A DNA stretch of 34,214 nt from contig JAUWZV010000009.1 of NCBI GenBank assembly GCA_030615105.1, positions 1 through 34,214 of the forward strand, in the 5' to 3' direction. Shown piece after piece: positions 30,686 to 33,453 of the stretch. Both the position numbers and the translations under genes were made by a program. The first letter of the stretch is position 1; each line of letters opens with the position of its first letter. The DNA comes from Desulfobacteraceae bacterium (GTDB lineage Bacteria > Desulfobacterota > DSM-4660 > Desulfatiglandales > B25-G16). Below the pieces are notes generated by a model. The model had not been told where the DNA came from and did not search any database. It saw only the letters and a program-made list of their open reading frames with translations.

Positions 30686-31774
30686 TTAAGAAAGGATCTT
30701 CTCCAGGGTTTTAATAAATCTCTTGTTCTCTTCTGGCAGGCCTACATTTATCCTGATATAATCATTTAACCCAAAGCTTTCCATAGACCTAACTATGACA
30801 CCTTGCCTGAGCATACGCTGGTATGTTTCTTGTGCGCCGAGTGGAGTCTTGATCAAGAAAAAATTTGTCTGGGTAGGCAAATATTCAAGTCCTATCCGAT
30901 CTAACTGTGAATAAAGGAATTCAAGACCATCCCTTGTAAGTGTAAGTGTTTTTTCCACAAACTCATCATCATCAAGGGCTGCTAAGGCTCCAACCTGGGC
31001 CAGATAATTTACATTAAAGGGCTGTCTGACAAGGTTCATGCCATCTATGATCATCTCAGAGGCAAATCCATAACCAATCCTGAGCCCGGCTAATCCATAG
31101 GCCTTTGAAAATGTTCTCAAAACCACGAGCAGGGGATATGATTCTAATAATTCTATTGCGCTTGCAATGTTTGGATCTGTGGCAAATTCAATATAGGCCT
31201 CATCTAAAACAACTATTAAATCTGAGGGAAGGGCGTTTAAAAAATGGGAGATTTCCTCCTTGTTTAAAGCCTGTCCTGTTGGATTGTTGGGGTTACTGAT
31301 AAAAATGATCTTGGTCCTGGAGGATACTGCCGTAAGTATAGCTGGCAAATCAATGGAGAAATTTAATAAAGGCACTGTAACTATTTTTGCCTCAAAACTT
31401 TTAACAACCTTTTCATATAATAAGAACGTAGGCAAAGGAAGTATAACCTCCTCATCAGGTGAAAGAACGGTGTGTACAACCAACTTTATTATCTCGTTTG
31501 ATCCATTGCCTGCAATAATCTTGCTCATTGGCAATCCGAACTTCTTTGCCAACTTCTGTCTCAAATAATAGCAACTGCCATCAGGGTAACGATGGATATT
31601 GTTGAGGTTTTCTTTGATAGCCCTGATAGCTTTAGGTGATGGGCCCGAGGGATTCTCATTTGAAGCCAGTTTGATAGAACCAACTATTCCTAATTCTCTC
31701 TCAAGTTCCTCTATCGGTTTCCCTGGTGGATAAGGGGTTATGTTTTCAATGCATTTCCTCATTAATCTTTTCAT
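30686..31774 (-). CDS. hisC: histidinol-phosphate aminotransferase
   Basis: PLP-dependent class I/II aminotransferase of histidine synthesis; some homologues also act on aromatic amino acids. It has KLASNENPSGPSPKA, NGSNEIIKLV, ISNPNNPTGQ, VLDEAYIEF and the PLP lysine in TFSKAYGLAGLRIGYG. The ORF track extends to 31888, but that extra N-terminus runs into the inverted repeat of the transposase unit. ATG at 31774 has AGAGGAAG about 7 bases upstream and gives 362 aa, the family length. It is the first gene of the hisC-cmk pair and lies downstream of the mobile element. Confidence 0.95.
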   Translation of the reverse strand: MKRLMRKCIENITPYPPGKPIEELERELGIVGSIKLASNENPSGPSPKAIRAIKENLNNIHRYPDGSCYYLRQKLAKKFGLPMSKIIAGNGSNEIIKLVVHTVLSPDEEVILPLPTFLLYEKVVKSFEAKIVTVPLLNFSIDLPAILTAVSSRTKIIFISNPNNPTGQALNKEEISHFLNALPSDLIVVLDEAYIEFATDPNIASAIELLESYPLLVVLRTFSKAYGLAGLRIGYGFASEMIIDGMNLVRQPFNVNYLAQVGALAALDDDEFVEKTLTLTRDGLEFLYSQLDRIGLEYLPTQTNFFLIKTPLGAQETYQRMLRQGVIVRSMESFGLNDYIRINVGLPEENKRFIKTLEKILS

Positions 31775-31798
31775 GGTGAATCTTCCTCTTTTTTGTTT

Positions 31799-31827
31799 TT
31801 TATAAAGCAACCAGGAAGAAAAGTAAA
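31799..31827 (-). promoter_or_regulatory. probable promoter for hisC-cmk
   Basis: On the minus strand TTTACT (31827-31822) and TATAAA (31804-31799) are separated by exactly 17 bases, upstream of the hisC ribosome site. TATAAA matches five of six consensus positions; TTTACT matches four. It lies between the end of the RAYT unit and hisC, so the pair keeps its own promoter despite the insertion nearby. Confidence 0.45.
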
Positions 31828-31863
31828 CCCTGTTAGGCTTTGCACAGGGCATGGAAGAGATAA

Positions 31864-32943
31864 GGGGACGTTCGTGCAGAAATTGCATAAATTCTTAAAT
31901 ATAGTCTTTCCTTTCAGACCCTTTCCCTGATGTAATGGCCCTGGTGATACATGAAGTTGTGACCCCAAGATAACGAGCTACTTCTGCTCCACAATAACCT
32001 AACTCCTTAACTGCAAGAAAGGATAATATCCGTCGGGCTTCAACAATTTCATGCCTTCTGCTTCTGGATTTAAGTTCACCAGTAGAAATATTATGGACTT
32101 TACACACCCTTTCAGCCAGTGAAGATACACTTATTTGTTTGGGAGCAAGCCTTAAATTCTCTTTTCCAATTTCATCTATCTCAGATAATACTGTCTCAAC
32201 AAATTCACCATCTCCCAATATCCTTTGATCAAAGGCCTGTTTTTCCCCACGTCTCCTTAAGGCCAATACCTCAGACCAAGTGCCCAGACTCCTTATAAGA
32301 CCACCACCTACAAGATCCGGTCTTCTACCCTGAGATATTGCCTGTTGAACAAATTTTAGATAGTTCTTTCTGCTATCACGACCACTTCCAAAATAGTTCA
32401 ATACAAATTCTGTATCTTGCCAGTCTCTTTTAACATATCCCATAAGTGCAGAATGGCCTGAGAATGGGGATCTATTTAGCCCTCTGATATCCTTAACTAA
32501 AGATGATCTTATTAAATTTAGATGAATATAGCGTACCAACTCCATTAAATATGTATCTTCCTGGCAGACAATAGATTTGTATCTATTCTGGAAGAGATGT
32601 CCGTGCCTTTTGTGGCGTCTGTTGAAATTGACCACATATCCGGTTAGTAATTTTCGCATACTTGATGAAAGTGGCCAGTTTTTTGTTTTACAAAGCAGGT
32701 GGAAATGATTTGGAAGCAACGTCCAGGCATATATGCTCAATGAACCATTAACTGCCAGTTCAGCCAACCGATCAATAAAGTCTTTTCGATCCTTTTTATT
32801 TAAGAAGATCTTTCTTCTTTCTATCCCCCTGCCCATAACATGATGTAATACACCAGGGGCATCTAATCTTGCTAACCGTGGCATGTGGCAAAAATCTCAT
32901 ATTAGATAATTGGATGTCAAGCAATTTCTGCACGAACGTCCCC
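31864..32943 (-). mobile_element. RAYT transposase unit with perfect 23-bp inverted ends
   Basis: GGGGACGTTCGTGCAGAAAT (continuing TGC) at 31864-31886 is matched exactly in reverse complement at 32921-32943. Between them is a single REP-associated transposase gene, 8 bases from the left end and 36 from the right. Classical IS200/IS605 elements carry subterminal hairpins rather than long inverted termini, but RAYT genes are often bracketed by inverted REP sequences, which this arrangement resembles. The 1080-bp unit sits just upstream of hisC. No target duplication is expected for a Y1 enzyme and none was noticed. Confidence 0.8.
31895..32884 (-). CDS. REP-associated tyrosine (HUH Y1) transposase with DnaA-like tail
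   Basis: Single-strand DNA transposase of the IS200-like Y1 family (PF01797). The start MPRLARLDAPGVLHHVMGRG, the HUH motif HFH (60-62, in LPNHFHLL), the RRHKRHGHLFQNRYKS segment and the likely nucleophile Y119 in YIHLN are all present. From about residue 250 the sequence (LAERVCKVHNISTGELKSRS, then ARYLGVTTSCITRAI) resembles DnaA domain IV, a helix-turn-helix that would add DNA recognition. The length of 329 aa is longer than minimal RAYTs because of this tail. The frame is intact, so it may be active. The gene reads toward hisC. Confidence 0.92.
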   Translation of the reverse strand: MPRLARLDAPGVLHHVMGRGIERRKIFLNKKDRKDFIDRLAELAVNGSLSIYAWTLLPNHFHLLCKTKNWPLSSSMRKLLTGYVVNFNRRHKRHGHLFQNRYKSIVCQEDTYLMELVRYIHLNLIRSSLVKDIRGLNRSPFSGHSALMGYVKRDWQDTEFVLNYFGSGRDSRKNYLKFVQQAISQGRRPDLVGGGLIRSLGTWSEVLALRRRGEKQAFDQRILGDGEFVETVLSEIDEIGKENLRLAPKQISVSSLAERVCKVHNISTGELKSRSRRHEIVEARRILSFLAVKELGYCGAEVARYLGVTTSCITRAITSGKGSERKDYI

Positions 32944-33453
32944 CTTTAGGACTATAACATCTTTCGGTTATTTATCTTGAAGACCCTGGCTAAATCAGGG
33001 CATAGACACCAGGTTCAGACCGTACGCTGGAGATTATATCAGATAGCCGGTAAGATTGTATTTCATGGGGGACAGGTTTTTCTGAAAGTCAGAAGAGGTC
33101 TTTGCCAACTCTTTGCTGACATTCGCCTCAGGATATGGGAGTTTGCCACTACTTAGAGAATACATTACAGGAAAGTGGCATTTTAAAATTTTAGATAGAA
33201 TAGTGTGCCCAAAGTACATGCTGAGGATGTCTAATAGTCATGAAAATAGAGAGGTAGGACAATGGGTTAAAGGTGACATATATTTTTGATCTTTGTTTTT
33301 TCATGCTGAAATAACAAAACACACCAATTTGCATAAAATTAATCTCGGATTTTGGGAGTATGCAAAGACTTGACCTTTGAAATCTTTTTATTTAGAGTTA
33401 AAAATAATAAATTTTTTACAAAAGTGACCGTTTTTCCTTTAAGGGGGGACTGT
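32944..33453. other. non-coding stretch with a second GGGGGACAGG motif
   Basis: About 510 bases with no convincing gene. The ORF 33034-33219 (61 aa, minus) has no recognisable domain or ribosome site. GGGGGACAGGTTTTTCTG at 33067-33084 resembles the GGGGAC ends found next to RAYT genes but differs from the local 23-bp repeat, so it may be a relic of another unit. The region before the next gene is AT-rich; no promoter stands out. Confidence 0.4.

Follow-up and report, generated by a model that had tools for sequence, protein, structure and literature searches.

The Y1/HUH transposase gene described here and the inverted repeat that encloses it form a TIRtron, an element with inverted ends (TIRs) that encodes a TIRYT transposase of TnpA-Y1 subclass 2.1. 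The element lies in the window, which denotes the whole 34,214-nt stretch of DNA that was analysed. The class is already known and the element is a new member of it. It is probably a small autonomous transposon, with TIRs that are read by a helix-turn-helix (HTH) domain and an enzyme that moves gene-less copies in trans. A preliminary description of this DNA had called the gene a RAYT, a label that is loosely right, as the gene belongs to the TIRYT branch (subclass 2.1) and is flanked by TIRs rather than REPs. Since this branch has already been described with TIRs and not with REPs, such flanks are not exceptional within the class.

The exact 23-bp inverted repeat around the Y1/HUH gene, which had been reported in that description, is confirmed by arms that are 100% complementary, with 1034 nt between them and a 329-aa ORF inside (Table 1). 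It is the sole inverted repeat of at least 12 bp within positions 31400-33400, and no gene other than the Y1 gene is located between the element ends. The chance that a 2-kb region contains any perfect inverted pair of 23 bp is estimated at ~2e6 x 4^-23 = 3e-8; the repeat is not due to chance. The listed ORF of the neighboring hisC gene (30686-31888) extends into the TIR. For hisC, the ATG at 31774 is probably the conserved start; this would place the element ~89 bp upstream of hisC without overlap. Outside the element, a lone GGGGGACAGGTTTTTCT at positions 33067-33083 of the window fits the published TIR motif GGGGWSAS; it is single-copy in the genome and is conserved beside the same flank in the same-genus relative G001.

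Table 1. Features of the TIRtron, in positions of the window
Feature	Position	Strand	Remark
3' TIR, downstream end of the element	31864..31886	-	GGGGACGTTCGTGCAGAAATTGC on the + strand; copies dispersed
TIRYT gene, 329-aa Y1/HUH transposase with C-terminal DnaA-like HTH	31895..32884	-	
Bac_DnaA_C-like HTH, residues 256-313	31946..32119	-	strongest covariation with the inner TIR
Catalytic Tyr Y119 (YIHLN)	32528..32530	-	present in 71/71 aligned clade A homologues
HUH motif, H60-F-H62 (NHFH)	32699..32707	-	both histidines in 71/71 aligned clade A homologues
TTGACA, -35-like box at the inner edge of the 5' TIR	32915..32920	-	offset recurs in many homologues, at the 5' end only
5' TIR, upstream end of the element	32921..32943	-	perfect complement of the 3' TIR arm
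TTTA adjoining the 5' TIR (minus-strand TAAA)	32945..32948	+	TAAA preferentially before one MITE end

The 329-aa ORF matches the Pfam model Y1_Tnp (E 1.3e-10) and, below the cut-off of the model, NCBIfam REP_Tyr_transpos (E 4e-16). The C-terminal residues listed in Table 1 resemble Bac_DnaA_C with an E-value of 1.7e-6, which is below the gathering score. A structure model built from three sequences only has a mean pLDDT of 50; its only well-predicted part comprises residues 251-320 (pLDDT about 62-86), with helices at 253-318. No relative was found in a PDB sequence search with the transposase.

The preliminary description had proposed a genome search for the end sequence. In the 2.46-Mb assembly (171 contigs, 81% complete), copies are indeed found elsewhere, with the exact 23-mer recurring on contigs C95 and C123. 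The 14-bp end GGGGACGTTCGTGC has 10 exact occurrences in the genome and five more with one mismatch, and at up to two mismatches the real pattern gives 23 matches compared to six for a reversed-sequence control. The majority of copies pair up in inverted orientation at a spacing of about 115-145 bp with no gene in between, and the same TIRs thus make gene-less elements of ~145 bp (MITEs) at about nine sites, on contigs C25, C97 (two), C110, C115, C117, C123, and C151 (two). C128 has a further, partial copy, and C95 a single TIR. The copies on C97, C110, C117, and C151 are near-identical across ~136 bp, have unrelated flanks and have ends that read TAAAGGGGGACGTTCGTGYAGARATTGC; three of them sit at contig ends, as is expected for recent repeats in short-read assemblies. 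The gene-bearing element itself is present in one copy, and we infer that it is mobile. The earlier proposal of a discrete unit whose two ends both bear the recognition sequence is supported, as paired inverted ends recur around gene-less copies and as the TIRs of homologues are family-specific and lie about equally far from the gene. The MITEs as simple internal deletions of the present gene element were considered and rejected: the interior is similar on the 3' side (p 0.007) and non-significant on the 5' side. Two MITEs from different genera, L062 and the one at G000:C151 (2022-2161), have a common left flank TTAATATATAAC replacing GGGGGAC, which is perhaps a common nested insertion.

TIRs of homologues were searched by local alignment of upstream regions with reverse-complemented downstream regions, in comparison with 200 shuffles. 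They are present in 41 of ~54 distinct homologue loci of the order and in 55 of 59 testable homologues from an independent phylum-wide sample, where nearly all begin with GGGGACG; a close homologue is encoded in 93 of the 297 genomes of this sample. As the anchoring of TIRs favours the GGGGAC core, base frequencies within that core are partly produced by construction; the core was seen independently in unanchored alignments of both the order set and the phylum-wide set. The distance between TIR and gene is near-constant across the phylum, often about 57-65 bp upstream. Two clades can be distinguished, clade A with GGGGACG..., to which the element of the window belongs, and clade B with GGGGTCA..., in which the protein is ~30% identical. 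The GGGGTCA clade includes a second TIRYT of this genome (L183, on G000:C119), which has 28-bp TIRs, GGGGTCACATCTTCATTTGTC, and dispersed ends of its own on C18, C58, and C103.

DDE elements typically combine long TIRs with MITEs, and the dispersed gene-less pairs in this genome look DDE-like. A DDE transposon that owns the TIRs and MITEs and carries the Y1 gene as a passenger is nevertheless extremely improbable and already largely refuted, because the TIRs track Y1 genes in 55/59 homologues and covary with them, because the ends enclose no second gene, and because no target duplication is visible at the MITEs for which both flanks are known.

Regarding the recognition of the ends, REP-like hairpins inside the TIRs of clade A are ruled out, as the hairpin content of 32 non-redundant TIRs is no higher than in shuffles (3.09 versus 3.12). 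Clade B TIRs have a modest hairpin excess with GTCAAA...TTTGAC stems (p 0.003). The inner TIR, taken as the stretch from +4 to +17 relative to GACG, covaries with the transposase in a first set of homologues (Mantel r 0.76), with positive partial correlations for the Y1 core and for the HTH. In an independent second set, rank regression gives 0.216 for the HTH (p below 0.002), 0.075 for the core (p 0.09) and 0.016 for the linker (p 0.38), and a sliding-window profile of the pooled sets peaks at residues 251-290 and 291-320, i.e. in the HTH; these tests are correlative, may be inflated by relatedness and may include a contribution of C-terminal divergence, the C-terminal domain being the most divergent and thus the best resolved region. 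The covariation, seen in a comparison of about 70 relatives, suggests that the DnaA-like tail of the transposase reads the TIRs. As single-stranded DNA, a MITE folds end to end via its TIRs, at -33.5 kcal/mol where shuffles give -10.6 (z -9). One TIR by itself remains unfolded (z -0.1 and -0.9). By this modelled folding, the hairpin that results from TIR pairing is a plausible candidate for the cleavage substrate. It is conceivable, at somewhat less than even odds, that the Y1/HUH transposase recognises its ends via the DnaA-like HTH on the duplex inner TIR, or on the paired TIR stem, and not via local single-strand hairpins. If the HTH indeed reads the inner TIR, an HTH swap should swap the TIR specificity.

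The two ends differ in adjoining motifs. At the 5' TIR, 16/22 and 16/53 elements have TTGAC at a distance of exactly 20 or 24 nt from GACG; none of the 3' TIRs has it at the +20/+24 offset. Matches to a -10 box behind TTGACA are not convincing, with only 3-5 of 6 positions. With the -35-like box placed against the 5' TIR, a transposase that binds its own end could repress its own gene. This position of the box could also mean that the TIRs chiefly regulate the transposase gene, as operators or terminators, and that their dispersal is secondary, which is very unlikely given that the 3' TIR is equally conserved without such a box and that paired TIRs occur without any gene. Furthermore, TAAA precedes 13 of 16 right MITE ends and only 2 of 12 left ends (Fisher p 0.0016). 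This asymmetry fits a strand-specific Y1 mechanism with one flank as a fixed short site and would also fit TAAA as part of one end; one-sided junction comparisons are compatible with TAAA in the target or in the element.

The MITE family is present in 10 of 40 related genomes. Its TIRs are intact in this genome and eroded in the relatives, with a median of 1 versus 5 mismatches (p 0.0008). The closest homologue of the transposase (72% identity) is encoded in G036, which belongs to another family of the order; other near homologues are found in a Desulfobacteraceae MAG (L054, 70%) and in G001, where the best one has 69% identity. As the closest homologue is located outside the family while the hisC DNA of G001 is 89% identical, these comparisons suggest a non-vertical history of the transposase. 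The 5' end of the L054 homologue is tandemly doubled, GGGGACGTTCGTTCCGAGCGTTCTTGACG; a 3' TIR matching this end was looked for and not found.

The preliminary description had also suggested looking for an empty site upstream of hisC in close relatives. Only the first part of this comparison turned out as proposed: hisC is kept in eight relatives, none of which has the element upstream of it, but the right flank of the element is contiguous with hisC in none of them. In G001, this flank lies elsewhere and adjoins an unrelated IS transposase, which, together with the absence of the element upstream of hisC, places the element at a synteny break. Comparisons of the flanks of MITE sites and of the window element with 18 relatives yielded no empty site that was clean on both sides, nor did those of the element flanks in the genera of G014 and G011; the junction comparisons gave one-sided or rearranged junctions only. 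One MITE (L165, G004:C27:2091-2228) is located precisely where two segments meet that have the swapped order in G012, and thus resembles the window element in its location at a synteny break.

The genomic data can also be read as a REPIN-RAYT-like host system, in which a resident, largely immobile gene disperses only short TIR pairs and the gene-side TIRs are two more copies. Such a system would agree with the finding that each TIR type of this genome has one intact gene copy, outnumbered by dispersed pairs, and with paired repeats that fold as one long hairpin like REPINs. It is still unlikely, as the near-constant TIR-gene distances across the phylum resemble those of element ends, the site is not common to relatives and clade A TIRs have no REP hairpin.

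For the favoured autonomous transposon, a reaction sequence can be proposed. The C-terminal DnaA-like HTH would recognise the half of the TIR that faces inward and is specific to the family, and the HUH/Tyr119 domain would cleave the outer GGGGAC end as single-stranded DNA, probably at replication, when both TIRs pair with each other as one long hairpin. The same domain would then attach the element at a new site, in many cases beside TAAA, and gene-less copies would be moved in trans by the transposase. TIRYTs are among the largest Y1 subclasses, and no demonstration of their recognition target or mobility was found in the available text of the literature on TIRYTs. Family-specific TIRs, HTH covariation, and near-identical MITEs together with a cognate gene provide defined substrates and a falsifiable HTH-swap prediction, which addresses a question left open in the available text of Quentin et al. 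2018 (PMC6006769). At the level of sequence, the features that appear to be new here are the phylum-wide TIRs, the hairpin-less TIRs, the HTH covariation, the 5'-only TTGACA, the TAAA preference and the MITEs that are intact here and eroded in relatives.

IS200/IS605 elements have subterminal hairpins and no TIRs. The element has the Y1 HUH core in common with them, and the short sequence beside one of its ends may be a counterpart of the IS200/IS605 target sites, but it differs by its TIRs and by the lack of subterminal hairpins, in agreement with the single-TIR fold (z -0.1/-0.9). With REPIN-RAYT systems (Bertels and Rainey 2011, PMC3116915) it shares one Y1 gene with many dependent short inverted pairs, but its ends are TIRs without REP hairpin or GTAG tag; the flanking repeat has no REP palindrome, and the ends read GGGGACG.

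TIRtrons and TIRYTs were named by Di Nocera et al. 2013 (PMC3733652), who, in the available text, give the motif GGGGWSAS for most but not all TIRYTs and describe TIR dimers as moderately abundant in some genomes. According to the accessible parts of Quentin et al. 2018 (PMC6006769), TIRYTs are subclass 2.1, with C-terminal HTH domains and no REPs found, whether the HTH reads the TIR is left open, and the subclass corresponds to RAYT group 1 (Bertels et al. 2017, as cited therein). These two papers were the only ones with the names TIRtron or TIRYT in a literature search of incomplete coverage. HTH covariation, 5'-only TTGACA, and hairpin-less TIRs were not found in the available text of these accounts (PMC3733652, PMC6006769).

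The transposase has the motifs NH[YF]H, FQ, and Y[IV]HLN in common with subclass 2.1/RAYT group 1 as presented in the accessible parts of PMC6006769, with YIHLNL in place of YIHLNP, and likewise agrees in its C-terminal Bac_DnaA_C/HTH_23 similarity and in the absence of REPs nearby. The DnaA-like or HTH_23 assignment of the C-terminus is based on sub-gathering scores and the modelled helices 253-318. As in the TIRtrons of PMC3733652, so far as its available text describes them, a Y1 HUH gene with a catalytic Tyr lies inside long TIRs that start with GGGG, and some TIRs are dispersed as dimers. Compared with the consensus GGGGWSAS given there, GGGGACGT of the element fits at the first six positions and differs at the remaining two, with G for A and T for S, whereas GGGGTCAC of the genome's second TIRYT fits, and GGGGTCA[AGC] of the sister clade fits or nearly fits.
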